NCBI GenBank assembly: GCA_018398585.1
Contig: JAGTTD010000007.1
Span: 31,648,911-31,712,910 of the forward strand
Source of the DNA: Simmondsia chinensis
Taxonomy: Eukaryota; Streptophyta; Magnoliopsida; Caryophyllales; Simmondsiaceae
Length of the DNA: 64,000 nucleotides
Direction of reading: 5' to 3'
The position numbers and the translations under genes are program-made. The notes beneath the pieces were generated by a model that saw only the letters and a program-made list of their open reading frames with translations, ran no database searches and was not told where the DNA came from. Of the stretch, positions 8,932 to 62,840 are shown piece after piece (position 1 is the stretch's first letter; the number at the start of each line of letters is the position of its first letter).

Positions 8932-10067
8932 GTGTGCTTCAATTTTGTTAAAGTCTTCTATCTCAAATAAACATTTGGAGGTGGGGAATCCTTTTTATAT
9001 GCCCTTTTCTTCTTGGGCTTAGTAAAGTCTTGTGGGCAAAGAGTGAGCTTGATAGACCACACGTGCAAGCACACCGCCTCGTCATGCCGGACCGACCAGT
9101 GCATCGCGATGTGGTGTGGTGTAGTGTGGACTTTGTCCGACCCTAACTTTTATTTTTGCTATCCATATTTATAGTCATTGTGATAAAAATTGAATTCGAC
9201 AAAATTCTTTCGTGGTTGAGCTCGAGGCTGCAAGCTAGATCCCAAGATGTCAACTTTAGGCCATTCCAAGCTCGAGATATCGCTGTTTACTAATTTAACC
9301 ACCCACTCTTTACATACTCACGCCTTCCTTGTTTAAGCTGGATTCTTAGCTCCTCAATATCCGCCTAAGTTTCCATATTGAGGGCCGGATTTCTCGCCCT
9401 CTTCCTGTCTGATAGTTATCCTAACAGGTCGATTTAAGTTCAGTGCCTTGGATGATTGATTAAGACACAAAAACATATAGAAATATTACTCCTCTTCTTT
9501 CATACTATCTTGAAGTAACTCTCTTCTGAGCAAGTAGGGACAAACTTCAGTCTATCACTGAGATTACACTTGTAAGATGGGTGCCCGGTTAACCTTGGGA
9601 GTCAGAGTGCCAGTGATCCCATTTGTACCGCTTTGACAGCATAAACAACTTAGGGCAGTGGTGAACCCTACACCACAGCAACTTGCCTTAGTTCAATCTT
9701 CCTACTCTATCATCATCCGAGCTTTACACTATTGTGGCGGGGGTCTTGTTTACCTGGGAGCCGGAGTGCCAGTTATCCCATTTATGCTAGTTGGGGGTAT
9801 AAAAATAACTTAGAGCAGTTCTTAACTCCATAGCTCAGCAACTTCCTTGAGTTTGCTCTTTCCTCTCTATTTCCTTTTCTTTGTGTTATTTAATTATCTT
9901 TACTCAATTCCATTTTGCCTAAGTTCAAAGTATATTGTGTTCAGTTGAGGTCTTCCTGTTTAAAATCTCTCAATCAGCCAGTTTGAATTTTGTTTTACCC
10001 CATCTTGAGTAAGCTTTATCTATATCGAGTTTTATTTTTCTTGTTATCCATTTGCTTTATTTTTGGA
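8932..10067 (+). repeat. R-family repeat, copy R2
   Basis: Starts at 'tgtgcttcaattttg', which is shared by the copies at 19.26, 61.97 and (reverse) 22.5 kb. It contains the 'gaccacacg...tgtggactttg' block. It then has two tandem versions of a roughly 170-bp block with 'gagtgccagt', 'cataaa.aac..aggcagt' and 'cagcaacttcc' (about 9590-9690 and 9760-9850). No ORF. It may be an LTR of an unknown family. TSDs were not resolved. Confidence 0.5.
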
Positions 10068-10072
10068 ACCAT

Positions 10073-10308: not shown

Positions 10309-11274
10309 CTTTTAGAACCAAACTAACACAATAATATCCTGTCCTACATTGAATTAAGGTCAAGGTCGTCCCATCAAAAACCCAAATCCTTAGCGTGTCA
10401 TGTCCTCAACCTTACAAACGTGTCAATTAGATTTGCGTCAACCTATCAAATCGTAAGGGACAATGCACTCTTACAGCTAGATTCTTTGATTTTCTTGGCT
10501 CTCCCCTTTTGTTTTTGCATGTCATTTAAAAAAGGGGGGGTTTTTTTTTTTTTTTTAAATAATCGCTTTTAAAATTATTTATTAACTATAACACTTTCCT
10601 AATTTTTTTTCAGTCAAATCATTTATATTAAAGCTCTTAGTTTTTCATTCAAACTACATATGTAATTTTATAATTTTTATGTAAAATAGGAGAGATAAAC
10701 ATATATACTAGCGTCAACACCCCTTGGTAAAATAATATACTCTTCAGTGGCCTTTATGCGCAAGTGGGAATCCACTATATGCTTGTGTGTATAGATATTC
10801 GTACCAGCACCCTGAGTGTAAGAATATAATACTTTACCAATAGAGCTAAAATTAAATTTTTTTTTTAATAGTTTTCTATGATTTTCTGTATAATCTAAGT
10901 AAAGTCTTATATGTGACCGTAATATTAAGGATATCAGTATAGGTGGTCGAAAGAAATATTTAAACTTTTGAAAGTGTGGTTTTCTAAAGGTTAAAAATTT
11001 GTAGTGATTAAATAAAAAGTAGTACTTTTAAAGACAGTTTTGTAAATAAATAACCTTTATAAAAAAAAAAATTCCCATATCTATTAGTTTGAAAAGAGTG
11101 TAACTCCCGTTCAAGGAAAAAAAAAGAGAGTGTACCTAAATTATCACATGCTACAGAGTTTGCATAAGAAATTTGAATGTTAATATAATATGAGTGACTC
11201 TCAATCAAATGTCACTAATTAACTAATAACGATCCTATTTCAAGTTTATATGAACATCACAAGTTTGAAACCAA
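10309..11274. other. AT-rich spacer of unit A
   Basis: No gene was seen. 10309-10500 matches 18560-18860, 10560-10870 matches 18950-19250, and 10880-11274 matches 20450-20870. These matches define the tandem duplication. A homopolymer cluster (G then T) is at 10532-10556. Confidence 0.5.
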
Positions 11275-18467: not shown

Positions 18468-18472
18468 AGTTC

Positions 18473-19258
18473 GAATTTTGTTTTACCCCATCTCGAGTTA
18501 GATTTATCTATCTCGAGTTTGCTTTTCTGGTTAGCCATTTACTTGATTTTCCAACAACTCCCAGCATACCCCATCCTAAATTGAAATAAGGTCAAGGTCG
18601 TCCCATGAAGAACCCAAATCTTCACCATACCCCACCCTCAATCTTGCAGTCATGTCACTTAGATTCAAACATAAATCTCACCATACCCCACCCTCAATCT
18701 TACAGTCATGTCACTTAGATTCAAACATAAATCTCACCATACCCCACCCTCAATCTTACAGTCGTATCACTTAGATTCAAACCTAAATCTTAATCGCATC
18801 AATTAGATTTGCTTCAACCTATCTTTTAGTGCTAGCTAAATTCTTTGATCTAGTTGGCTCTCACCTTTTGTTTTTGCTTATGTCATCAAAAAATGTTTTT
18901 TTTTTTTTTAAATCGCCTTTAATAATAATTAATTTTCATTTAACTATCACAACTTTTCAATCTCTCAAAAAATTGCCTTCAAAAGTTTGAATTTTTTTCA
19001 ATCAACCATTTATGTTAATGTCCTTAGTTTTATATATTGAGACCACACATGTAGTATTACATTTTCTAATATAAAAATAGGAAGATAAAAACATATGTTG
19101 ATGGCGGCGCCCTTGATATAACAATATACCATTAAATAGTCTCTCTGTGCAGGTTTGAATCCCATGATATGCTTGTAGGTATGAAGATTTGTACCAATGT
19201 ATAGAGCCACCTTAAGAGTACAATGCTTTAGCAACTAAGAGTTAGAATTTGGGGATAA
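18473..19258. other. Unit B spacer with triple tandem repeat
   Basis: No gene was seen. It matches unit A 9995-10067 and 10309-10870. A 56-bp unit containing 'caccataccccaccctcaat' is repeated three times at 18623-18790. Unit A has only one relative of it. Confidence 0.6.
18623..18790 (+). repeat. Three tandem 56-bp repeats
   Basis: Unit starts at 18623, 18679 and 18735. The units are nearly identical, so the expansion is recent compared with the divergence of units A and B. Confidence 0.92.
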
Positions 19259-20100
19259 TGTGCTTCAATTTTGGAGTCTTTTATGTTTTCACCCTAATTC
19301 CACATTGAAATTCTAGAGTAGAAGAGTTTAGTTTATATACCTTCTTGTTATTGCACTTGGTAAAGTATTGTAGGGTCTAGAGTGGGTTTTGTGAACCACA
19401 CACGCGCGTCCGCCCGCCATCCTCACCGAGCTGGCGCGTCGCAGTGTGGTGTGATGTGGACTTTTTCTAATCCAGACTTTTATTTTTACAACTCTTGTGT
19501 TTGTTTAAGTTGTCGTAAACCAACTCGAGTTGAGTCCTAGTCCTGGGTAGTGCTTGAGGCTTTTGGCTCAAACCTATGTTGTCCCTCTTGAGTGGACTTC
19601 GAGGGTGTTGCCTCGAGGTACCACCATGTCACCTGTCTCAAGGCTCGAGGCTACGAGCTCAAGCTCGAGTATGCGTTTTGACCGCGTCTCTTCCCGCTCT
19701 TTCCTTAATTGATTTTTTATAATTGAACGGATTTTTAGGTGATCTCATATCAACCACTTTCCTTATTTGAGACGGATTCTTTGCAATGATCTTTTACTTA
19801 ACCTCCAAGTATTTTACTCTATAAATACGGTGGTTTAGGGTTATGTTAAATATACAATTCACTTATGAAAATACAGAATTTCTCCTTCTCCTTCACCGTT
19901 TACTTTTCTCTGTCAATATTCTCTCCTCTGCTACTGAGCAAGTTGGGGCGTACTCCAACTCATCTCTCCGGAGTACACTGCTGAGTTGGGTGCCATGTTA
20001 AACCCTGAGAGTCGGAGTGCCGCTTGTCCAATTGTACCTTTGTGGGGGTATAAACGACTTAGGGCAGTAGATTCGCTACGGCGCAGCAATTTCTTCAGTT

Positions 20101-20336
20101 ACCAACACGCTGTCACCGGATCCCATTAGAACTCCGAAGTTAAGCATGCTTGGGCGAGAGTAGTACCATGATGGGTGACCTCCTGGGAAGTCCTCACTCT
20201 CGGGTTGGGGGCACTGGGAAACAGCCTCTCTTCAGGTTAACACCCTGAATGGGGAAGGCTGCGTACATCCGCCCCCCACAGACCCTGCGTAGGCGGGAGC
20301 CCTTGAGGCACTAGGCATGCTTCTTTATCTCTTTCC
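20101..20336 (+). mobile_element. 5S rRNA-headed SINE, copy A
   Basis: A 236-bp element. The head (20101-20197) follows plant 5S rRNA from about nucleotide 13 ('accaacac') through 'caccggatcccattagaact', box A, the intermediate element and box C to 'gggaagtcctc'. The body then reads 'gggaaacagcctctcttcag', 'ggaaggctgcgtacatccg', 'gaccctgcgtaggcgggag', and a pyrimidine-rich tail follows. Flanks CTTCAGTT (20093-20100) and CTTCTGTT (20337-20344) are a probable TSD. The R6 copy near 62700 shows the uninterrupted sequence. Confidence 0.85.
20137..20197 (+). promoter_or_regulatory. Internal Pol III promoter of SINE A (5S type)
   Basis: Box A-like 'aagttaagcatgcttgggc' starts at 20137. It is followed by the intermediate element 'gagtagtacc' (20157-20166) and box C-like 'gatgggtgacctcctgggaa'. 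In 5S genes these bind TFIIIA. Near-consensus sequence suggests the promoter may still be competent. That is inference only. Confidence 0.7.
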
Positions 20337-24029: not shown

Positions 24030-25870
24030 TTTTTTTCTTTTTAACAATGGTAAGGACAAATCAGAAGGAGCCACCCCCACGTAAAACAGGGCGGCCGGAA
24101 GCCTCCACATTGGAAATGCGCAGCAGGGTGGTGGAAGGATCACGAACTTCGCAATTGAAACTGATGCTTCCTAAGCCCTCGCTTGCCATGAAATCGGCGG
24201 ATTGATTGGCTTCGCGGTAAACATGAGAGAAGTGAATTTGAGTCATCCTTTTACCGAGAGTTGCAATCTCGTCTTTAATGAAGTGGATACCACTAGGACA
24301 GTCGAACGACCCATTTAAAGAGTTTATGACAACTTTATTGTCACCTTCGAGGATGATCTTCGAGTATCCTAGGGTGGCAGCCGTATAAAGCCCGTCCCTA
24401 GCTGCAATTGCTTCAGCAACAATGACTGACGCATTTCCTAGTCTGTTGCTCCTTGTTTTGATAACCTCACCATTAGAGTTACGAATTACAAAACCTGAGG
24501 CTGCTTGAAAACCTCTTTTGGCGCCATCGAAATTTACTTTCACCCAGTCGAATCTTGGGGGGGACCAGGATATCCAGAAGTTCTTGCTTCTTTTGCTCAA
24601 ATTCCCAGAATTGTTTGATGAATCTTCCTCTATAGTGTTTCTGCATACCCATTCCCAGTACGTCCTCTTGGCCCGGATGACCACCTGAGAAATCGGGGTT
24701 GTTTCTTTTCTAAAAATAGCGGCGTTTCGATCCTTCCATATTTGCCAACAAACCATTATTCCTTCATTGTCTTTCTGAGTGCGGAGTTCCTCCCCTAAAT
24801 CCACTTTTTTTTGGGGGGGAGGTGATCCACTTTTGGGTCTTTGCGGCGTGCCAAATCTCCTTAGCTCGTGGGCAGTTTAGAAGAATGTGGGATACTGTCT
24901 CTCTACTTTGAGCACACCAGGTACAATTAGGGTTCTAATCTTGAATTCGTTTTTGCATCTGATCCCCAGTTGCCAAGAACCCATTTTGTGCTTGCCACAG
25001 AAAGATTTTTATCTTGGGTAGGATATCCAAGTTCCAAATCCACTTGAACTCCCACTTGTTTCTGTCATCCCACTCAAGATTATGGGCAAGCCAAGTGGCA
25101 GACTTGACGCTGAATTTTCCGGTACTGGTGAATCCCCAGCAGAACTGGTCTTCCCTGGGCGATAGGGGAACTGGGACGCCCATAATGGAGTTGACCATGT
25201 CTTGGGGAACAACTTGATCAAGAGCTTCCTTATTCCATTCCCCTTTGGTGATGTAGTCAGCTACCAAAGTTGAGGAATCGATATCACTAGGAGCGGACCT
25301 TAGGCTTTCTGCCAGAGGCCCTTCCTCTACCCACCAATCCTTCCAGAAGTTGATTTTAGCACCATTCCCCACTTTCCATTTGATTCCTTTTCTTATGAGG
25401 TTCCTAACAGCCATTATTCCCTTCCAGGCTGGGGAATCCGTTCCTTTGCAAGTATAGTCAAAGAAAGAGGAGTTACGAAGATAACAATCCTTTATGACCT
25501 GGATCCATAAGTTGTTTTCGTTCATCAGTATTCGCCATCCAAGTTTGCACAGGAAGGCTTGATTAATCGCCTCCAACTTACGCAGCCCTAGTCCACCAGC
25601 CCCTTTTGGTCTGCAGATCTTGCTCCAGGCAGCCATATGAAATCCGTTTGTATTATCCTTGTTCCAGAAAAAACGACGGCTAATTGAATCCCCCTGTTTG
25701 CAAACTTTTTTGGGGAGTTTAAAGCATTGCATTACATGGCTCGGCATGGATTCAGTTGAGGACTGAATCAACGTAACCCTGCCTGCTTTAGACAGTTTCC
25801 CTGCCTTCCATTTTGCTATTTTACCTTCCATTTTCGGACTCCATATTGAGGACTCCATATGTGAGTTTAT
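24030..25870 (-). mobile_element. 5'-truncated L1-type LINE
   Basis: The minus strand encodes only the C-terminal part of a LINE ORF2 (24061-25858). It is followed after 20-30 bp by an A-rich 3' end (T-rich at 24030-24045 in plus). Truncation at the 5' side and a poly-A-like 3' end are typical of target-primed reverse transcription. A TSD was not resolved. Confidence 0.8.
24061..25858 (-). pseudogene. LINE ORF2 C-terminus: RT end, zinc-binding domain, RNase H
   Basis: Part of a non-LTR retrotransposon polyprotein. Reading from 25858 down: the RT thumb region ('WKAGKLSKAGRVTLIQS'), the conserved 'KGAGGLGLRKLEAINQAFL', the RT zinc-binding domain ('FWQ..'-like, then a 'NCTWCAQSRETVSHILLNCP' Cys/His cluster near 24870-24925), and a plant-type RNase H at about 24090-24540. 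In the RNase H the acidic residues are in place ('VNFDGAKRG', 'VAEAIAARDGL', 'ILEGDNKVVI', 'REANQSADFMA'). Lesions: a TAG stop just after 'MQKRIQD' (near 24932) and a frameshift in the T/G homopolymers near 24806-24820. All upstream endonuclease and most RT is missing, so it is dead. The intact RNase H acidic residues suggest fairly recent insertion. Confidence 0.88.
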
Positions 25871-26649: not shown

Positions 26650-29622
26650 TAGCGGGCCGGGCCGGGCCGGGCCGGGCCGGGGCCTACCTTTTTAAAGAAA
26701 AAAAATTAATATAATATAAAGTCGTTTTGTACTAAAATTATTCTAATTCATTGATAAATAATATGAGATACAAATACATTTTTTTTCAAGCACTAATAAT
26801 GCTAAATATACATGTTCAAAAAAAATATTGTTAAATATATATAATAAAATAAAATATACAATAAATAATGGTAAATATCTTATCAAAAAAAATAATAGTA
26901 CATAAATAATGTAATAAATACAAGTACAAATACAACGCAGTTGGGGCCTAATATTTAAGTGTTGATATCAATCGCCTTGGGGGGTATCTAGGCCATCATT
27001 TGAGATATTAATTGTGCGGTCGTCTTCTTCATCGCTCGATGAATCCAGCTTCATACTCTGTTGATCTCTTGCCTCTGCTAGCAGCCAATCCTTCAAGCAC
27101 ACGGATATTTCCAAGCTTGACGGTGATAGCTTTGCTCTCTTCGTTCCAAGCAACCTGCCACCAAGACTGAAAGCACACTCCGATGCTACTGAAGACACCG
27201 GACAACTTAGTATATCACGTGCCATGGTAAAAAACACGAGATATTGGGTTTGGTTTGTGTTCCACCATTGTAAAAGGTCAAAATGCGGGTTGGCCGGCGG
27301 CCCGAAAATATGAACCATCAGTGTCCGCAAATAATAATCTAGCTCGTCACATGACGTAGGGGCTACTGTGGGAGTAAATTGCTCCAACAGCTTCCACGAA
27401 TATGACGTGTGTGAACTACTTCCACTAGATGTGGAAGATCCTACTGCAGCAGTACTAGAATTATTGGACGCTAATTGACGGGAATATTGAGAAAATAAAC
27501 TATGCAAGGCGTTATCGACATCGGCAATGAAAGTGTCGATATTAAGAGTAGGATGCAAATACTTGAAAAAATGTTGGCAAAACAAGTTGAAAACCCCGCG
27601 TTTACAACGAGGGTCTAAAATAGTTGCCAAGCAGTATGTAAGAGGCAGTTCAGAATAATATTTGGCAAACTTTTCTTTTATTGCCTGAATCGATGCGAAC
27701 AAAATGGGGTTGGATTCATTACCCACCATCCAATTGACAATATCAAGCAATCTTGATATTGCTTGAGGCATGGTCGGATAGTAGCAACCCGAAAAAAATG
27801 TCGTTGCCTCTTTAAACATGCTAAAAAAGTTACACATTTGATCTATTGTCTCCCAATTTATACCGGCTAGGTTGTAATCGCTCCATTCTGTATGATTTTC
27901 CTGGGCGAATTCCATTAGAACGTCTTTGTATGGTAGAATGCGCTCTAACATTTCTACCGCAGACGACCACCTAGTTTGGGAGTCTAATTTGAATTATTTA
28001 TATTCTATGTTATGCAACCTACATAAATTTCTAAATTTTCTTTTTCTAGTGCTGGATGATTTAACAAATATTATTACAGATCTTAAGGTGGTAAGGGATG
28101 TTTTTATAAGATCTAAACCATCCATTACCATTAAATGCAAAATGTGACAAATGCAACGAATATGGAAATACTTCCCACCTAACATGGGTCTCATTTGCCT
28201 AATTAAATGTGTAAGGGCTGCAGTGTTATTGGTAGCATTGTCGAATGTAATACTGAAGATACGTCGCTCTATGCCCCAGTCGCGGACTGCCGACATAATC
28301 ACACCCGTAATTACCTTAGCATTGTGAGGGCAATCTAAAAGTCCAAAATGAATTATCCTCTTTTGGATGATGAAGGATTCATCGGTCCAGTGTGCCGTTA
28401 TGCACATATAAGATTGGCCAGGTTTCGAAGTCCATACGTCCAACGTCAGCGAGAACATGCTCGTGTTCATCGTAAAATGTGTGAAGACCCCAGCTTTCAT
28501 CCCGTGGTACAACGTAAAAGTGTCCCGCTTTATGGTGTTCCGAGGAATTCTCACAATGGCGGGGTTCACATTTCGTTGGAGGTAGCTGACGAAATTTGGG
28601 TCTTCGCCGGTATTAAAAGGCCTTTCACTCAAAATTATATATTTAGTTAGCCCATTTCGGTTGCTCTCTTGAGAGAACCTAAAATTAGCAAGTGCACCGA
28701 TCACTTGCTGTACTAGACGTTGTTGGCACTTTTTTGGGTATTGCTCGGGGTGGCACCTAAGTACATGTCTGTTTAATGTGCCCGTCCCACTGTCAGGTTG
28801 ATGACTAAAATCCTTAGCTGGGTCACATAATTTACAAGTTGCTTTATTAGTTGTCTTATTAAGGGTAAAGTGCTTCCATACCCCACTAGTTGTACGCCTA
28901 CTAGCACCGGTACTAGTTTCAGGCTGGGCTTCGGTGGTGGGCGTGGGTTCCTTATCAGTTTATGAGTCTCCAACCCCACCACCACCTGACTCATGATAAT
29001 CTTGTTGTTGTCAAAAGTCATAATCTATATCATCAGTGTATGGGGGTGATGGGTCTGGTTGTATAAAAGCTCGTTCTTCAGTATTAAGTAAGACAATTCT
29101 ACTCCTTTTAGGGATTCTGGGTGGCCGAGAAGAGTTAGAACTAGCACGACCGGCTCCAGAGGATGATGAAGAGTTGTGTGCCATATTAGTATAAGTGATT
29201 ATTATTTATAAAATGCAAGTAGTAATGCAAATTAAATAACTAAAAATGCGAATCAAATAAAATTGCGATACTAAAATTACCGAAACGAGAGAACAATGAA
29301 ATTCGAACTTCAGCCAAATACTTTACAAACTTCGAACTTTAGAGCACAATTTTTGCAATTAGCAAAGTTAGAGAAGATGGGAGACGATGAACGTATAGAG
29401 AGAGAAGAGAGAATTGAAGATTTGGTGAGGAAATGGGTTGGGAAGGTTTAAGTATTTATAGGAAAAAAAATATAATTTTTTTTAATTAAAGAGCTGTTCA
29501 ACGGCTCTATTAATAGAGCCGTTGGGCCCGGGCCCGGCCCGCACTGGGCTCTGAGGCCTACAAAACAAGCCCGAGGCCAGGGTCATAAATGGGCCCGGCC
29601 CGGCCCGGCCCGGCCCCCTCTA
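26650..29622 (-). mobile_element. hAT transposon 2, nearly intact coding region
   Basis: Inserted in the left LTR of copia 2; the right LTR shows the uninterrupted sequence near 36300-36345. The left end has TAGCGGGCC followed by a (GGGCC)n run to 26682. The right end has GGGCC-rich DNA and, in reverse complement, TAGAGGGGGCCGGGCC. An 8-bp TSD could not be fixed, so the ends are approximate. AT-rich flanks at 26690-26960 and 29190-29500 hold no other ORF. Confidence 0.8.
26968..29184 (-). pseudogene. hAT transposase, 739 codons, three in-frame stops
   Basis: A DDE/hAT-superfamily transposase that would bind the element ends and cut and paste DNA in the nucleus. The start is ATG at 29182-29184 (MAHNSSSSSG...). 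It reads in one frame to 26968 with no net indel. In order: Ser-rich N-terminus; BED zinc finger at about residues 105-150 ('GVWKHFTLN', 'CKLCDPAKDFSH', 'LNRHVLRCHPEQY'); catalytic core with 'SLTLDVWTSKPG' and 'SITFDNATNNTAAL'; 'TRWSSAVEMLE' near 400; hATC dimerisation at about 636-700 ('SVASECAFSLGGRLLGTKRA'). The stops are TGA at 29011-29013, TAA at 28960-28962 and TAA at 27994-27996. Length is as expected for the family. Closely related to the broken gene at 3905-6067. The lesions look young, and its proteins could have mobilised the MITEs with the same ends. Confidence 0.9.
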
Positions 29623-32107: not shown

Positions 32108-35100
32108 AGCAGGAGGTAAACAAATGCGAAGGTTGGATATAAATAATAGAAAAAGAGTGCGCGGAAGATTCTTTGTGAAGATATCAGCAATCTGCGGTGA
32201 GGAAGGAGTATGAAGTACTAGAACAAGACCCATTTGAACATGCTCACGAAAAAAGTGGATGTCAATCTCGATATGTTTTGTGCGAATATGCTGGACAGGG
32301 TTTGTAGATATGTACATGGCAGAAACATTATCACAATAGACCAAAATAGCTCGTGGAAGAAGACTAAGCTCACTAAGGAGAGACCAAACCCAGTAACATT
32401 CGGATACAGTGTTGGAGACCGCACAATACTCATTCTTGCACTAGAACGAGAGACGGTGGGCTGTCGCTTAGAGGATCAGGAGATAATGTTGCCTCCGAGG
32501 AAAACACAGAAACTAGAAGTAGAACGGCGAGTGTCAGGGCAACCAGCCCAATTAGCATCCGAATAAGCCACAAGTTGGTCCAAACGTGTTGGGGAGATAG
32601 TCAAACCATGATCAATAGTGCCCTTGATATAGCGAAGGATGCGCTTAACAACCATCTAGTGCGATGATCGTGGAATATTCATAAACAGACACACCTGCTG
32701 AACTGCATAAGAGATGTCAGAATGAGTAAAGGTGAGATATTGAAGGGCACCAACAATGGACCTGTATAAGGTGGGATCAGTCATAAGTTCACCGTCTTCT
32801 AAAGAAAGCTTGGACTTGGAATCTATAGGTGTAGCAACAGGCTTGCAGGAGAGCATGTCGGTTCGGTCTAGAAGATCATGTGCATATTTAGATTGAGATA
32901 AGAATAACCCTAAAGAGAGGTGAGATATCGAGATGTCGAGAAAGTAATTAAGGCACCCTAAGTCGGTCATATCAAACTCAGAGTGAAAAGAGGGAAGTAG
33001 ATAATGAAGTACCACATGAGAAGAGGCCGTGAGAACGATGTCATCAACATAGACTAATAATATAGCCATATCATGTCCACGATGTAGGACAAATAAAGAA
33101 AAATCTGACTTACAGCTTCGAAAATCCAACTGTTGTAAAAAGGTAGCAAAACAAGTGTACCAGGCGTGAGGTGCTTGTTTGAGACCGTAAAGAGACTTAT
33201 TAAGCTTACATATATGATCAAGATACTGAGAGCTGATGAAACCCGGTGGTTGTTTCATATAAACTTGTTCATTAAGTGTGCCATTAAGAAAAGCATTTTT
33301 GACATTGAGCTGATGAATAGGCCAGTTTCGAGAAGTAGCAATAGTCAAAACAATACAAACAGTAGCAGGTTTAACAACAGAACTAAAAGTTTCACTGTAG
33401 TCAATGCCATACCACTGTGTAAATCCCTGAGCAACTAGCCGAGCTTTATACCGTTCAACTTAACCTGTAGATGTTTGTTTAATACGAAAGACCCACTTGG
33501 AGCCAACAATGTTACCATGAGGGGGCGGGGGAACAAGATCCCATGTTTTATTACGAATAAGAGCATTAAATTCGTCGAGCATAGCATGCTTCCAGTTCTC
33601 ATCAGTAAGTGCCTGCTTACAAGAAAAAGGTACCTCGGGCAAAGTACTATGAGCAATCATAGAAGGTTTGAGAAGAGGTTTTACAATACCAGCACGAGCA
33701 CGAGTCACCATGGGATGAATAGTGGAAGTAGGGGGAGCCGAACCCAGTGTGGGCGGATGTGCAACCACGTTTGGTGGCACAATTGGAGGGGCTACAAGTG
33801 CAGTCGTTGGTACAGGAGCGGCAGGGGGTGGTGTGGCAGCTGCAGTGGGTGGCGCCGCAGGAGGCGGCGGCAGCGGTGGTTGGAGGCCCACGAACGGTGA
33901 AGACGTGAGTGGAGGAGACACGACTTGATGAAGCCGGGTCATTGTATCTTGAGAGAAAGTGCCCAATCATGCAAATGGAAAATTTGCTTCATCAAAAACA
34001 ACATGCCTCGAAATAATGGCTTTATTAGTAGAAAGATTCAAATATTTATAACATTTGTGATTTTGTGGGTAGCCTAAGAAAACACATATGATAGAGCGTG
34101 GAGCAAGCTTATGAGACGTGGTGGCACTCAGATTCGGATAGTAGGCACTACCAATAACCTAAAGATGATCGTAATTAACTTGGTTCTTGTATAAACATTG
34201 AAAGGAGATCTTTTTCTTAATAGAAGTGGACGGTAGAAGGTTGATAATATGAACTGTAATAGAAATTGCTTCAACCCAAAATTTCAGAGGCATGCATGCT
34301 TGAACAAGAGGTAACACATCATGTTACAAATAGTACGATGCATGCATTCAACTTTCCCATTCTATTGGGAGGTTTGAGGGCAGGAAACCCTACTGAGAAT
34401 GCCCTTTTGCAGAAAAAGACTATTAAAGTCACGTTTGATATATTCAGTGCCATCATCGCATTGAAAATATTTGATTTCTACACCAAATTGACTCAACACA
34501 AGATTACTAAATGGAACGAATAGGTCAAAAACCTCAGATTTGGCATGCATAGGATAAATCCAAAAAAAATGAGAATAATCATCCGATAATAGCAAATAAT
34601 ACTTAAAACCACTGAAACTGATAACATGTGATGTTCATACATCAGAATGAACAATATTGAAAGGACGTGTAGTACTAGTGACAGACTTTTGAAAAGGTAA
34701 ACGACTATGCTCACCAAGTTGGCAAACATGACACAAACTGGACTTAGAGAACTCGAATAAGAAATAAATTTTTATTTGACTAAAGTGGACAAGACTGGCT
34801 CCCCGGGATGGCCAAGTCGACGATGCCAGAGAGATTGTGTGTTTTTGGAAGCAACTAGGGAAACGTGTGGGGAGGATGCCACGGGCTGCCTTGGTTGACC
34901 AAATCGACTGACTGTGTTTGGTTTGGGAACAGCGAAAAGAGGCCCCGAGCTAGCCCAACGAATAATGAGGGACATTGTTTTAGCATTTTTATTGGAGAAA
35001 CCACCCGAGTCAAATTCTAAAAGGTAAAAATTATCTTTACAGAATTGACGAAAAAAGATTAAATTAGTGGAAAGACCAGGAACATAAATGACATTATGCA

Positions 35101-35669
35101 AATTGAAGGGACCAACAGGTGTAAGAATAGAACCAGATCCAATCCCAACAATTGACAAACAAGAGCCATTACCAACTAATATTTTATCATAGCTATGATA
35201 AGGACGAAGAGACGTTAGCAAACTGGGGTTATTAGTCATATGAGACGATGCGCCACTATCCATTATCTAGGAAAAATCAGTCAAAGGAGTAGAATGAGCA
35301 GTAAGAGATTGAAAATTGGTTTGAGGAGACGCAAACCCTGAATAGAAATTAGAACCAGTGGCATAAGTATTAATTGCAGGATGAAAAAGTGGTGGATATA
35401 ACATATTCTCACCATAAACAAATGCACTGAAGAAAGTAGGAGCACCAAAGAATGGTAGGCCAGGTTGGAAAGCAGAACTAATCATTGGATTGAGCATAAT
35501 CAACAGCAACCACCTCTGGGAAATTAAACAAGCAGTCACGGGAAAAAACAGAATCAATTAATTCTCTACCAGCCAAAATCTCTTTCTCCTGCGTTGAAAT
35601 CTTCGATTCCTCCACTCCACATAGGGTTTCAACTTTCAAATTCAAATCCTCTTCACTGTCTTCAATCAA
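32108..35669 (-). pseudogene. Copia 3 polyprotein: protease, integrase, RT, RNase H
   Basis: Reading from 35669 down: a short acidic stretch not recognised as gag; protease with an intact 'IMDSGASSHMTNN' at about 35225-35263; GAG-pre-integrase ('SLWHRRLGHPG' near 34800); integrase ('FWIYPMHAKSEV', 'QCDDGTEY', 34362-34595); a long Pro/Ala-rich linker (33700-33960); RT from 'WKHAMLDEFNALIRNKTWDL' (33590) with '[20 protein letters not shown]' and an intact active site '[11 protein letters not shown]' near 33045; RNase H ('DANWAGCPDTRRSTS' near 32545, 'VYCDNVSAMY' near 32320). Lesions: frameshifts near 34770, 34360-34000, 32655 and 32435, and a TAA near 33461. The gag zinc knuckle is missing, so the copy was already non-autonomous or has an internal deletion. 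Confidence 0.88.
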
Positions 35670-43946: not shown

Positions 43947-44137
43947 TGAAGTTTCATTAACCAGGTCTTTAGCTCATTGCTGCGGGCCAACTTTTCAAGC
44001 TGAGGGTCCTCGGAAATAACCTCCCTTTAGGGTTGCCCCCTAAAGGGGGAATGCTGCGTACATCTACCCCCCAGACCCTGCTTATGCGAGAGCCCTTGAA
44101 GGCACTGGGTTTGTTGTTGTTGTTGTTGTTGTTGTTG
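43947..44137 (+). mobile_element. Au/TS-type SINE with (TTG)n tail
   Basis: The body reads 'tcggaaataacctcccttta', 'gggggaatgctgcgtacatc', 'cccccagaccctgcttatgc' and 'gcactgggt', then (ttg)n at 44109-44136. It shares the 3' body with the 5S-headed SINEs, but its head is not 5S. ACACAA at 43941-43946 and 44138-44143 may be the TSD. Confidence 0.65.
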
Positions 44138-49474: not shown

Positions 49475-52400
49475 ATGATGGTAGACAAGAAGTGGATGAA
49501 AATAAAAGATCGAAGAACATGCGAGTATCTACACGGTGTTGATAGTTTTCTTGACTTTGCATATGAATCCTTAGACTTATGTGATAATGGGAAGATTAGA
49601 TGCCCTTGTTATAAATGCCGAAATGTTTCTGTGAAAGAAAGATGTAATGTCCGATATGATTTATTGAGGCATGGAGTTTTTCAACAATACACCATATGGA
49701 ATTTACATGGTGAAAATTTGATGATATTGAGAACTCAAATTCTGAGGATGAACATAATAGTACTGATACAACTGCTCTTGATTATATGCCCGCTATGTTA
49801 CAAGCCGCTTGTGGTGTGGCGGGAATGAGATTACAAGTAAATAATATAGGTAGTGAACATGATGATATTGGGCCAAATGTGGGTCAACAAGTTCCAAATA
49901 GTGAGGCAGTAAAGTTTTATCGCTTATTAAAAGAGCGCCAAGACCCATTAACCGTTGAGGGTAAAAAGATGTCAAAGTTAACTTATTTAGTGAAGTTGCT
50001 TCACTTGAAATGCCTTAACAATTGGAGTGATAACTCATTCACTTCCTTGCTCCGATTTCAAAATGACACATTGGGTCTACAACTTCCTACATCATATTAT
50101 GAGGCCAGAAAAATTATTACAGATTTGGGTCTCAAATATGTTAAGATTGATGCTTATAGAAATGATTGCATGATATATTGGGGGGAGCACATTGACGCTG
50201 TGGATTGTCCTACTTGCCACCTGTCAAGGTGGAAGGAAAAGAAAAAACCTAATGGAAAAAACATTCCTTACAAAACTTTTTGGTATTTTTCAGTTACTCC
50301 TAGACTCCGAAGATTTTATATGTTAAGTATGACTGCTAAATATATGCGATGGCATAAAGAGGATCGGATAGATGATGGGGTAATGAGACATCCTGCTGAT
50401 TCTCTTGCTTGGAAAATCATTTGATGAGATTTATGATTCATTTGCTTCAGATGCTCGTAATGTAAGGCTTGGCTTAGCTTGTTTCCCAACCTTTTAGAAA
50501 CATATAACATAGTGTTTGGCCGGTTGTACTCATCCCTTATAATTTGCCTCCATGGATGTGCATGAAATCTTCTTCATTTATGCTAACAGTACTTATCCCT
50601 AGAGGTGAAAAGTGTCCAGGAATAGATATAGATGTGTATTTGCAACCAATGATTGAAGAGTTAAAAATGCTTTGGGAGGTTGGTATGGAAACATACGATG
50701 CCCACTTAAAACAAAATTTTGTGATGCATGCAGTTGTTTTGTGGACAATAAATGATTATCCTGCATATGCTGATTTGTTTGGTTGGTGAACCAAAGGATA
50801 TTTTGCTTGTCCTTGTTGTCATGGGCAAAAGGAGTCATGTCATATAATTAGCAAAATGTGTTATATGGGTCATCGGCGTTGGTTGCCACAAGATCATAGG
50901 TTGAGAAAAAATTCCGAAGCTTTTGCTAACACAGAGGAAATACGGTTGGCTCCTCAACTTTTGTCAGGTGATGATGTGTTAAAACATTATGAAAAATTCA
51001 AACAAGCGCCGTTTGGTAAGAGTAAGAAGAGAAAACATGACGATCCCACTTTTAATTTATATGGATGGCGAAAGAAAAGCATTTTCTTTCAGTTGCCTTA
51101 TTGGAGAAAGCTGAAGTTGCGTCATAATGTTGATGTCATGCACACAGAGAAAAACGTTTCTGAAAATATCCTTTTTACGTTGATGAACACAATGGGTAGC
51201 TCTAAAGACACAATAAAAGCTCGACTTGATCTTGTTGCAATGAAAATAAGGAAGGAACTGCATCCTATTATAGAAGGAGAAAAAGTGCGTATTCCCATTG
51301 CATGCTACACGTTCAGTTCTAATGATAAAAGAGTAGTTTGTGAAATGTTTATGAATTTGAAGTCTCCTGATGGCTATCTATCAAACATTTCTCATTGTGT
51401 AAAGGGTGATAAAATCTCACAAATGAAGAGCCATGATCATCATGTATTCATTGAACAACTCCTTCCCATTGTGGTTCGTGGATGCTTACCTAGAAAAGTG
51501 TGTGAACCATTAATTAAGTTGGGTCACTTTTTTCGGAATTTATGCTCTAAAAATATAACGTTGAAAGATTTGGATGATCTTCAAAAGCAAATTCCTTGCA
51601 CTCTTTGCAAGTTACAGATGGTGTTTCCACCTGCATTCTTTGATGTCATGGTGCATTTGGTGGTTCACTTAGCTGAAGAAGCAATGATTGCCGGACCTGT
51701 TCGATATCTTTGAATGTATCCAATTGAGAGTTACATTATTCTTATTATTTTTTTTTCTTGCATTTGACTTAGCGAAAGCTTTCTAATGTGAAAATGAATA
51801 TGGTATTATAGGTATTTACGAAATTTAAAATCATATGTTCGCAACAAAGCACGTCCAGAAGGGTCAATTGCAATGGGGTACTTGGCCGATGAGTGTCTCA
51901 CATTTTGTTCTAGATTTATGGATGATGTTGATACAAAATTTAATCACAAAGCAAGAAACGATGATCGTGATATTGAGGCACATCCAAGCAGTGACTTAGA
52001 GATATTTAGATCTATTGGTCGTCCTCTAGGAAAGGATTCCCAGCATCATCCATCTTTGGAGGATTTTGAGAAAGCTCATTTATATGTCCTACACAACTGC
52101 GATGATCTTTTGGATTTTATTAGGTAACTTGTGATACTTTTATTTGTAGAGTCTTTGTTATACCAAACTATTCTCAATTTCTTCCAATTCATCCAATTAG
52201 GGAACACAAGTTGGAATTAGAAAGAGAAAATCATCGGAATGTTGAAAAGAGGCATAAGGAGCAATTTGCAAAGTGGATATACAACCATGTACGTATATTT
52301 ATGTTAATCATATATTTAATAAGAATAACTTCCTTTTGTAGATATTTTGAGTTATTTTTGTCCTTTATAATAGGTGAAGGAAATGCATAAACATGGAAGT

Positions 52401-53102
52401 GTGGGTGAAGATCTATATAACCTAGTATGCTATCCTTCACGCATTGTGAAGTGGTATAATGGGTATACTGTTAATGGTTTTAGATTCCACACTTTAGATC
52501 TTCAAGAAACTAGGAAATGTCAAAATAGTGGTGTAATAGTTCTTGGTGATGATGAATCTGATAAAGAATACTATAGGGTATTGAAAGATGTCTATGAATT
52601 GCAATATGGGGGCGGAAATCGTGTCTTTGCTTTCAAATGTGATTGGTATGATGTAGAACACTGTGATCGGGGATACAAAGTAGATGCATATGGCATAATA
52701 AGTGTTCACAAAGAAAGAAGGCTAAAGACGAACGAGCCTTTTGTTCTTAAATCACAAGTGCAGCAGGTTTTTTACGTGCAAGATCCTCAAGTAGATCATT
52801 GGTTAATTGTTGTAAAGACACAACCTCGAGATCTATACAACATGACGACAATAGAAATTGATGACTTGAATGAGGAAGTTGAAGATGATGCTTGTCAGGA
52901 AGATGAGGTTGCTGTTGATACATTACGCAACATATCTACGCCACTTGATAATGATGATGAGATCGGTTGTTTGGTTGGAACTGGGTTTTCAAAGAAAGAG
53001 GAGTTAATGTTGTTAAATTGGTTAAAGAGACTTTTAAGAACATCAAGGAAAATGATAAAGAAGCTAGGAGCAACAAAGAAGATGATAATCTTTGTTTTTT
53101 AA
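49475..53102 (+). pseudogene. CACTA transposase, TNP2 type (En/Spm ORF2)
   Basis: The enzyme that would bind CACTA ends and cut the element out. In order: an N-terminal transposase-associated domain (49475-49690, 'WMKIKDRRTCEYLHGVDSFL', 'CPCYKCRN'); the TNP2 core (49850-50420 with 'CPTCHLSRWKEKKKP', 'RRFYMLSMTAKYMRWHKEDR', 'DDGVMRHPADSLAWK'; 50540-51310 with 'LPPWMCMKSSSFMLTVLIP', 'DVYLQPMIEELKMLW', 'ACPCCHG' context, 'HNVDVMHTEKNVSENIL'); a DUF4218-like region (51340-52130, 'YLADECLTFCSRFMDDVDTK'); a DUF4216-like C-terminus (52410-52830, 'VFAFKCDWYDVEHCDRGYKV'). Introns are visible at about 51713-51811, 52130-52199 and 52290-52373. Lesions: a 1-nt frameshift near 49712, frameshifts at 50420-50540 and a TGA in 'GW*TKGY' near 50787. 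Full domain set but not functional. Confidence 0.9.
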
Positions 53103-56327: not shown

Positions 56328-57449
56328 GTAGGATACCCTAGCCAAGAGATTTAGAGATCACTCGATAGCTAAGGAATTTTCCCTAAGAGCCTATAGGGAA
56401 TTTACCCTAAGAGCCTAACTTACCACTCATCGAAATGATGGCAAGAGCATGGATAATTACTTCTCCGAACTAAAAAAAATATACCTAATGACTTAGCTGC
56501 TATGGATTGTCCAATTTCAAATTGAGAACTGACTCACCATACTTTTTATGGTCTACCCCCCGAATATGCTGCTTTTGCAACATTTACACGACAATTTAAT
56601 CACAACATCAGTTTTGAGGAATTAAAACCACACTAATTAACTTGGTTACAACATGCTGGAAAAACCTAGGCAATATCATCCTAGGGGCTTAGGCTCGGGT
56701 CATCATGGTGCGCCACCTTCCCACCCCACCCCTGCTCAGCTTGTTCCACAAGGTCCCCCCTCATTCAATTTAAGCCCAGGCATTCACAGCCCTCCTCCCA
56801 CACCTTGTTAAATCTGCGATCAAGTGGGTCATATAGCTACCACTTGCTCACATGATTAGTCCTCTTTCACCGATCTCGCACAATCCTTCTCTTGCCATGT
56901 CCATCAGTGAGCCACTTCAACTGGTACCTTGACTTGGGAGTATCCAACTTGATGACGCCAAACTCAGATATCGTTCGTAATCATCTTCCATATAATGGTC
57001 ATAAATGCATCCTTGTTCGAAATGGGGCTTTATGATCTATGACTCATGTGGGTTTTTTCCTCTCTTCAAACCAAATTCCGACCCCTATCACTCAATAATG
57101 TTTTACTTGTTCCCCAACTAACACACATCATTTTTTCTATTAAACAATTATGCCAAGATAACAATTGCATTGTTGAATTTGACTCATACTTGTCTTTTGT
57201 TAAGGACAAAGCTACGGGGATCCCTCCACTTTGGGTGCATAGTAATAGACATCTCTATAACTTCTCGCCCCACATCACAGGTTTTGTTGCTCAAACTCAC
57301 TCTAGACAACTTTGGCACCATTAGGTACCTTATGTAATCTAAAACTAATGTCTAGTTCTAAATTTTCTGATATTTTTCGGTCTAGTTATTTGGGAAAATC
57401 GAGAAGATTGCCATTTGAAGTAATTACATAATAGTACGGCTCTCTTCAG
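56328..57449 (+). pseudogene. Copia 5 gag end, protease and GAG-pre-integrase
   Basis: Gag resumes after the CACTA element. 'TYHSS', 'YGLPPEYAAFATFTRQFN' near 56555-56605 and 'FEELKPH' match the copia 4 gag. A Pro-rich CCHC region is decayed. Protease near 56930-57030 reads 'WYLDLGVSNLMTPNSDI', where the catalytic Asp-Ser-Gly has become Asp-Leu-Gly. GAG-pre-integrase at 57090-57330 has 'FSIKQLCQDNNCIVEFDS' and 'SRQLWHH'. Frameshifts and stops are frequent. The SINE insertion follows. Confidence 0.75.
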
Positions 57450-57682
57450 GGCAACCAACACGACGTCACCGGATCCCATTAGAACTCCGAAGTTAAGCGT
57501 GTTTGGGCGAGAGTAGTACCAGGATGGGTGATCTCCTGGGAAGTCCTCACCCTCAGGTTGGGGGCAGTGGGAAACAGCCTCTCTTCAGGTTAACACCCCG
57601 AAGGGGGAAGGCTGCGAACATCCGCCGCCCCCAGACCCTGCGTAGGCGGGAGCCCTTGAGGCACTGGGTATGTTCCTTCCTT
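57450..57682 (+). mobile_element. 5S rRNA-headed SINE, copy B
   Basis: 233 bp with a long TSD: ACGGCTCTCTTCAG (57436-57449) and ACGGCTCCTTTTCAG (57683-57697). The head follows 5S rRNA from about nucleotide 13 ('accaacac', 57454) to 'gggaagtcctc' (57538-57548). The body reads 'gtgggaaacagcctctcttc', 'gggggaaggctgcgaacatc', 'gaccctgcgtaggcgggag', 'gcactgggtatgttcc'. The copia coding sequence is duplicated at the TSD ('TAPFQLIY' on the right), which confirms insertion. Confidence 0.9.
57490..57548 (+). promoter_or_regulatory. Internal Pol III promoter of SINE B (5S type)
   Basis: Box A-like 'aagttaagcgtgtttgggc' at 57490-57508, intermediate element 'gagtagtacc' at 57511-57520, box C-like 'aggatgggtgatctcctggg' at 57521-57540 and on to 'tcctc'. 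Only a few positions differ from plant 5S. Confidence 0.72.
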
Positions 57683-58400
57683 ACGGCTCCTTTTCAGTTA
57701 ATTTATTAGGACACATGGCAATTTCCTACATTCTCTACCACATTAAACAAATATTGTGTCGTATTTGTTGATGACTTTTCAAGATTTACATGGTTATATC
57801 CAATGCAGCACAAATCTGATGTTTGTTATCTTTTAAAAATATTTAAAACTTTAGTCGGAAACCAATTTGATATGAAAATAAAAGTTTTTCAAAGTGATGA
57901 CGAAAAGGAATTTGATCACATTTGTATAAAATCATTATGTTAACGTCTTGGTATTCATTTCCATTTATCAAGTCTTGATACTTAATAGCAAAATGGAGTG
58001 TTGGACCGCAAGCATCCAAATTTACTTGAAATGGCACGAACGCTTCTTATTCATTCTAAACTCTCTTACAAAATTTCGGATGATTCAGTTTGTAGTGCTT
58101 GCTTTATAATAAATCGTCTTCCAACACCGTTATTACAAAATGCATCCCTGTTGAAATATTGTTTCAAAACCCACCCGACTAATCTCGCTTTTGCGTTTTT
58201 GGGTATGCATGTTACCCTAACCTCATACTCCGTGCCCCTCATAAATTAGCTTCCTATTTAACACCTTGTGTCTTCTTGGTTATGCGACACATTACAAAAG
58301 TTATCAATGCTTAGACCTAAAAGCAGGACGTCTCTATGTTAGTCGACATGTCAAGTTTGATGGATCTCGTTTCCCCTATCCCACACTCGTGCAAACATAG
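57683..58400 (+). pseudogene. Copia 5 integrase
   Basis: DDE integrase core: 'VVFVDDFSRFTWLYPMQHKS' near 57755-57815 (first Asp present), 'VFQSDDEKEFD' near 57885-57915 (second Asp), then 'NGVLDRKHPNLLEMARTLL' near 57995-58050, where the family has NG(V/I)xExxH, so the catalytic Glu has become Asp. The C-terminal part has 'LGYATHYKSYQCLDLK' near 58275-58320. Frameshifts and stops. Confidence 0.78.
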
Positions 58401-61965: not shown

Positions 61966-62840
61966 GGAAGTGTGCTTTAATTTTGATGTCCTGTGAAAAC
62001 CCTACATCCCACATAGAAAATTTAGAGGAGGAACGCCTTGTTTATATACTCCTTTTTTATACTTGGTAAAATCTTGTGGACCTGGAGTGGGCTTGGTGAA
62101 CCACACATGCGTGTGCTCCCACCCCACTGAACTAGCTGGCGTGTCGCGGTGTAGACTTTTTCTAGCATGACTTTCATTTTTTACGACCATTGTATTTGTT
62201 TAAGTTGTCGTAAAACAACTCAAGGTGTGTCATTGTCCTGGGTAGTGCTCGAGGCTACAAACTCAAGCTCAAGTACGCATTTGACTGCACCAATTCCCGC
62301 TCTTTCCATAAGCCGTTTTTATCCACAACTGAAGTCGGACCTTTGAGCTCTCCCATATCCGCTACTTTCCTTGTTTGCGGTGGATTCTAAGACATAATTT
62401 TTTCTTTAACCTACAAGGATTTTTCTCTATAAATATCTTGCTTTAGGATTTTGTTAAGCACACAACTAACATACAAAATTTACAAAAATTCTCTTTCTTC
62501 TTCACGGCTGTATTTCTCTCTTAAAATTATTCTCTACTCAATTACTAAGCAAGTTGGGGTGTGCTCTAACCCATCTCCCTGTAGTGCACTGCTGAGGTGA
62601 GTGCAATGTTAACCCTTGGGGTCAAAGTGCCTTTCATCCCATTGTATCTCTGTGGGAGGCATAAACGACTTCAGGCAGTCGATTCTCCACAGCACGGTAA
62701 TTTCTTCGGTTCATTCTTTCCCCCACGTTATTTTGTTTAAATTCGTTTTTATCATCGCATTGTGAACCTCTAGATCATTTTTATCGTAATAAGAGTTTGA
62801 TCACTTATTCACTCAATTTCTCCAGCGAAAGGCACTAAAA
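61966..62840 (+). repeat. R-family repeat, copy R6
   Basis: Starts 'tgtgctttaattttgatg', then 'tgggcttggtgaaccacaca', 'cctgggtagtgctcgaggct', a TATA-like 'ctataaatatc' at 62431-62441, and 'gcataaacgacttcaggcag' near 62650. It gives the uninterrupted form of the SINE A site ('aatttcttcggttc' near 62698-62711). Confidence 0.55.

Follow-up and report, generated by a model that had tools for sequence, protein, structure and literature searches.

Among LINEs, BovB belongs to the RTE clade. The springhare SINE Ped-1 joins a 5S rRNA head to a BovB tail (PMC3747384, Table 1), and for the moth SINE HaSE3, also 5S-headed, an RTE-clade LINE is named as the mobilising partner (PMC7245038). There are reports of SINEs with 5S heads in vertebrates, in insects, and in Aspergillus (PMC7245038, PMC8010984, PMC5063351). 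Vertebrate SINE3 elements, the beetle SINE3-1_TC, and AfuSINE3 of Aspergillus use box A, the intermediate element (IE), and box C of the 5S head as an RNA polymerase III (Pol III) promoter; the partners named for the vertebrate and beetle elements belong to the CR1 or I clade (PMC7245038, PMC5063351). For plants, SINEs are described as derived from tRNA (PMC9033089). Where a 2024 study of plant retrotransposons that bear 5S (Cassandra) illustrates how promoters are acquired, its example is animal SINEs (PMC10853983). The tobacco TS SINE has a tRNA head over a tail derived from RTE-1_STu; ∼100 bases of this tail are nearly identical to the 3′ end of the RTE-clade LINE, and both end in TTG repeats (PMC3747384).

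The family that we describe here from Simmondsia chinensis combines features of several of these systems. Like Ped-1, it pairs a 5S head with the 3′ end of a LINE of RTE type; unlike it, it is not an animal element, and an independent origin is implied (PMC3747384). HaSE3 and related moth SINE3 families likewise have a 5S head, and HaSE3 an RTE-clade partner (PMC7245038, PMC8010984), but the moth families are insect elements of 294–389 bp with ∼500–4,400 copies per genome (PMC8010984). The SINE3s of vertebrates, the beetle, and Aspergillus share the 5S head and its three promoter elements, but are animal or fungal. TS has the RTE-type body and TTG tail found in our type I copies (see below) under a tRNA head instead of a 5S head, and the Au SINE has common body motifs, named in an earlier sequence-only reading of this locus, and a short T-rich end like that of our type II (PMC3747384). 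Cassandra and Ajax also are mobile elements that use a captured 5S promoter, but they are LTR retrotransposons without a LINE tail, and the duplications of Ajax are 5 bp long (PMC10853983, PMC10886601). With a probability of about 0.9, we interpret the family as a non-autonomous retrotransposon, a SINE of SINE3 structure in which a 5S Pol III promoter is joined to a LINE tail, which inserts by means of a LINE and has passed from a type I to a type II form.

The window (the whole 64,000-nt stretch analysed) contains three copies, A, B, and C. Copy A, a type II element, spans positions 57450–57681 on the forward strand (232 bp), where the sequence-only reading had placed it; measured against the family consensus, it is missing the first ∼8–10 bases. 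The target site duplication also claimed there is present, with TACGGCTCTCTTCAG on the left (57435–57449) and TACGGCTCCTTTTCAG on the right (57682–57697), both on the forward strand like the parts of the element itself. The 5S rRNA-derived segment (57454–57548) is 89.5% identical over 95 bp to the host 5S gene L071. It includes box A (AGTTAAGCGTGTTTG, 57491–57505, one change from the consensus), the IE (CGAGAG, 57508–57513), and box C (AGGATGGGTGATCTCCTG, 57521–57538, one change from the SINE consensus); for these we take box A to be positions 50–64 of 5S and assume the other promoter positions in the same way. The body (57555–57669) is the 3′ end of a resident RTE-type LINE, with homology from AGGTTGGGGG on, and is followed by the type II pyrimidine-rich tail ATGTTCCTTCCT (57670–57681). 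The motif ggctgcgTacatcc, earlier ascribed to the body, stands in copies B and C; copy A has ggctgcgAacatcc in its place.

The host sequence around copy A is a decayed element that we take to be Copia; its downstream flank reads FVDDFSRFTWLYP in one frame and, used as a genome query, gave 40 scored matches in the list, the window's own among them. Five Copia relatives were fetched at the upstream junction. Three of them (L072, L073, and L074) were aligned across the site of copy A, and all three carry a single copy of the 15–16 bp duplication sequence and no insert; L075, which matches the right flank only, and L076, with a weak left match, were left out.

Copies B and C are likewise real. Copy B, of type II, lies at 20099–20326 on the forward strand and shows no clear target duplication, though its empty site is visible in L004 and again at 62.5–62.7 kb of the window, where an insert-free copy of the sequence that it hit lies at 62513–62720 (forward strand). 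Copy C (10309–10072, reverse strand) is an old, diverged 5S-headed SINE with 75.5% identity to the type II consensus. It is flanked by TGGTTCCAAAA on the right (10061–10071) and TGGTTCTAAAA on the left (10310–10320), and a second copy of its target sequence without the insert lies at 18468–18665 (reverse strand). Empty sites were thus found for all three window copies. The window also holds a headless body with a (TTG)n tail and no 5S head (43995–44137, forward strand), with no LINE protein match upstream. ARAGORN found no tRNA in the 64 kb. Much of what else the window contains (24061–25870, 26968–28959, 32656–35266, and 49714–53102) has the look of transposon remnants, with frames named by eye as LINE/RNase H-like, hAT-like, Copia-like, and CACTA-like.

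The head of the family is derived from 5S rRNA and carries box A, the IE, and box C. The Rfam 5S model (RF00001, gathering score 38) matches copy A at 57443–57559 with 77.1 bits and copy B at 20097–20201 with 65.8 bits, and reports no 5S in copy C; further family loci submitted to Rfam gave 5S in four of four cases, at 63–68 bits. Copy B is as close to the array gene L071 as copy A is (89.5% over 95 bp), and copy C has 68.6% identity to it over 70 bp; the corresponding values for the 5S gene L069 are 89.2% for copy A (93 bp), 89.4% for B, and 68.1% for C. The claim of about 95 bp of 5S rRNA with all three promoter elements in copy A is therefore upheld by both the Rfam match and the identity to a host gene. 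The type II consensus is identical to three host 5S genes at 15/15 positions of box A, 6/6 of the IE, and 16/18 of box C. The same figures hold for type I, measured against a composite host 5S that is one or a few bases off each fetched gene.

The folding predicted for the element as a whole resembles that of shuffled sequences (z = −0.82) and gives no support to a special fold. A re-paired helix I of 5S was considered in both types (AGGGTT/AATCCT and GAGGG/CCCTC), but shuffled ends formed equally long stems in 1,261 and 1,263 of 2,000 trials, so we do not claim a compensatory change.

The host 5S genes themselves are located in arrays on contig C8, as seen among the 47 scored of 51,838 first-look 5S candidates. 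Two 5S rDNA arrays lie there in opposite orientation (4.686–4.702 Mb, forward; 6.397–6.415 Mb, reverse), with genes spaced by some 435–444 bp and 421 bp, or roughly twice these values; the two genes read differ slightly in sequence. A 5S gene-like sequence of 111 bits (L070, G000:C29:34924700–34924890) stands away from these arrays and is the sole C29 match among the 47; a type II SINE starts within ∼10 bases after it.

The 3′ part of the family has its source in a LINE. Open frames upstream of some headless bodies read LRWFGHVSRR...RGRGRPKKSWLETIRQDLTHLNLREKMALDRTRWRASIRV in L047, with related frames in L041, L045, and L031. Across all fetched loci and the window, this LINE protein end matches in eight places. 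In seven of these the body follows downstream on the same strand, 160–321 bp away; the eighth match (L005) stops 29 bases before the end of the fetched stretch. LINE copies and both SINE types can be aligned from one common base, AGGTTGGGGG. What had been called an Au/TS-type body is the 3′ terminal part of a LINE that resides in the host genome, and the SINE thus has a LINE-related 3′ end; the TS part of the earlier label agrees with the literature on TS (PMC3747384), and its account of the origin is corrected. Pfam returned nothing above cut-off for the LINE protein end, the one match being AT_hook with an E-value of 0.76. Its motifs presumably resemble those of plant RTE proteins. We call the LINE RTE because of these motifs and the TS literature (PMC3747384). 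The LINE behind the headless bodies is itself probably numerous, since such bodies are dense in several fetched loci: four in L045 and three in L041 (10 kb each), and two in L006 (905–1021 and 1783–1901).

Headless bodies also bear on how the 5S head was acquired. Au and other Angio-domain SINEs are tRNA-headed, unlike this family; Seibt reportedly defined the Angio-SINE superfamily in 2020 by a 37-bp Angio-domain. The sequence-only reading had proposed a plant SINE3-like family made by a head swap. On this view, the tRNA head of a TS/Au SINE was replaced with a 5S head, either through recombination or through template switching at the RNA level. TS does carry an RTE tail of like kind under a tRNA head, and the short T-rich end of type II resembles the (T)2–5 tail listed for Au (PMC3747384). 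Moreover, five of 11 uncut headless bodies in a random genome sample have no LINE protein upstream and may have another origin. The other six of the 11, however, are LINE ends, and tRNA A and B boxes of the SINE-Finder type occur within 250 bp upstream of none of the 11 (chance expectation, 52 of 2,000 random stretches). Type I, furthermore, has its start at the first base of 5S or close to it, and it bears the TTG tail of the LINE. TS and Au heads are tRNA-derived with A and B boxes, and the head here is 5S; the RTE-type tail with (TTG)n that characterises TS is found in type I, and type II has (CCTT)n/T. That 5S RNA was fused directly to the LINE tail is a simpler account than a head swap, and it fits better because no tRNA-headed copy was seen (0/11). 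The proposal of a 5S-headed, high-copy SINE therefore stands, and its head-swap origin is less well supported and, in our judgement, unlikely.

The copies fall into two types. Type I starts with AGGGTTCATTTACCAGGCACTAAGG, where host 5S genes start GGGTGCGATCAYACC, and retains, close to where its 5S part ends, the GTGTTGC that precedes the LINE tail and (TTG)n. Most of 20 type I copies have this RTE-type (TTG)n tail; in two of the 20 (L055 and L062) the greater part of the 5S head is missing, and some copies have lost a portion of the body. Type II, the commoner type, starts with TACCAAAGAGGGCACCAACACGCCGT, lacks GTGTTGC, and ends in (CCTT)n/T. The 5′ ends of the two types can hardly be aligned. 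Between them lies an 82-nt promoter stretch in which the two consensuses show 0/82 differences, as against 14/120 in the LINE-derived body (Fisher p = 0.001); this stretch is identical to three host 5S genes at 78–79 of 82 positions. We infer that type I is nearer the founding fusion than type II. The type II tail no longer fits the TTG repeats of the LINE: either the body alone is recognised, or the LINE partner has changed.

The family is very abundant. A genome search with the element gave 3,927 first-look candidates; the best 40, which were scored, all start at query base 1–6 and end at 228–233 of 233. The junction between 5S and body has 7,824 genome matches at ≤3 mismatches for type II (34 bases) and 3,615 for type I (32 bases). 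Both patterns read backwards as a control gave no match genome-wide, and neither pattern matched viral contigs. The family thus extends far beyond three loci, which excludes the case of only three copies that the sequence-only reading had set against itself. A random sample of 20 places of 10 kb (200 kb), drawn from 17 contigs comprising 585 of 831 Mb, contained seven 5S-headed copies in five of the 20 places, five of type II (one of these, L043, without the tail end) and two of type I. It further contained 12 headless body stretches, of which one, type II-like, is cut at the edge of L034 and was set aside to leave the 11 discussed above; the consensus read backwards found nothing in the sample. 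Seven copies per 200 kb extrapolate to ∼29,000 headed copies per 831 Mb, with Poisson limits of 11,700 to 60,000 and a true uncertainty that is wider, because two of the sampled places have two copies each. Type II alone (five in 200 kb) would account for some 20,000 copies. The aligned stretches of the seven headed copies, summed by hand, make up ∼0.8% of the sample. Among the matches listed, exact type II junctions appear by eye to be sparser mid-contig than near the ends of C1 and C2.

Dispersed copies of the family are bounded by target site duplications of variable length. Among 55 matches in the fetched loci, 37 were near-full and were tested; the other 18 were left out. A duplication score of at least 12 was reached by 20 of the 37, and by 0.2% of 1,500 mismatched flank pairs. 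The duplications measure 14–22 bp in 19 of these 20 copies (L021, whose repeat is mostly T, is left out). The same 19 copies end in pyrimidine tails of the TTCC type, in many cases T-rich or TTCCTT(CCTT)n. Strong duplications occur mostly in the best-matching copies, which is a weakness of this evidence: one of six near-full copies from the random sample (L038) scored at least 12, and the others are more diverged or, in two cases, of type I, with ends other than those modelled in this test. Among 20 type I copies that contain an exact junction, eight scored at least 11, a value that 99% of mismatched pairs do not exceed. In most of the eight the repeat ends directly before AGGGTTCATTT and resumes after the TTG repeats, and in L053 it is A/T-rich and out of place.

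These boundaries weigh on three further explanations. The sequence around each of copies A, B, and C recurs elsewhere in the genome, as would be expected if copies had been carried about solely as passengers within segmental or satellite repeats of larger size. However, flanks are unlike from copy to copy among those read, and insert-free versions of the surrounding repeats exist; for these copies, that contradicts the other circumstance held in advance to tell against a SINE, namely copies that always sit inside larger repeats, and we give the passenger explanation almost no weight. Equally far-fetched is the idea that 5S rRNA retropseudogenes or dispersed 5S genes came by chance to lie beside LINE ends: genuine 5S arrays and one stray 5S-like gene are present in the genome, but thousands of sites show an identical fusion point, and the duplications enclose the fused unit. 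Cassandra elements, finally, make short, fixed target duplications. As a known plant mobile element that bears 5S, Cassandra, with 5S in its LTRs, could have left the 5S pieces as solo LTRs or remnants (PMC10853983, PMC10886601). The duplications here, which abut the 5S–LINE unit, vary between 14 and 22 bp, unlike those of LTR elements, which are short and of fixed length (5 bp in Ajax; PMC10886601). The 3′ part, moreover, is the end of a LINE and bears TTG or CCTT/T tails. The arrangement of a Cassandra TRIM, with 5S within LTRs and short fixed duplications, is not the one found, and we consider a Cassandra origin highly improbable.

The SINE3 interpretation suggests the following course of events. 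Copies would be transcribed by Pol III from the internal promoter of the 5S copy at their 5′ end, giving an RNA whose 3′ part would copy the 3′ end of the resident LINE, with its (TTG)n tail. Because of this copied end, the LINE reverse transcriptase, the probable source of the enzyme, may accept the RNA as a template. Insertion would proceed through target-primed reverse transcription, which would leave the 14–22 bp duplications of the clear cases. As for origin, a roughly full-length 5S transcript may have been joined to a LINE tail, most simply via template switching, with type I (5S, LINE tail, and TTG repeats) as the putative founding form. Type II would then be a derivative with an unchanged promoter core, changes at both ends of the 5S part, and a (CCTT)n/T-rich tail in place of the TTG repeats. 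We see about even odds for a fuller scenario: a plant SINE3 born independently from a 5S transcript and an RTE-type LINE tail, with a master lineage that later traded (TTG)n for (CCTT)n/T-rich ends while the 82-nt core stayed unchanged, possibly switching its LINE partner before or during the expansion to ∼20,000 type II copies.

The family is structurally a SINE3, possibly the first in plants. No earlier plant SINE3 family was found in the literature searched; the earlier surmise that the family is new or poorly described is consistent with that literature, without being proven by it.

Such copies crowd the annotation of 5S genes, as the 51,838 first-look 5S candidates in this genome illustrate. 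SINE-Finder looks for tRNA A and B boxes. AnnoSINE treats candidates nearly identical to Rfam RNAs as possible non-coding RNA and removes those highly similar to known RNAs (PMC8825457). Tools of either kind may miss a plant 5S-headed family. Beside Ped-1 and HaSE3, the plant family would be one more case, of independent origin, in which a 5S head is combined with an RTE-type LINE. Its copy number also bears on a reported speculation that retroposed 5S copies remain silent or weak (PMC8010984): a plant SINE3 that numbers in the thousands or tens of thousands suggests that a SINE can be highly successful with a 5S (type 1) promoter.
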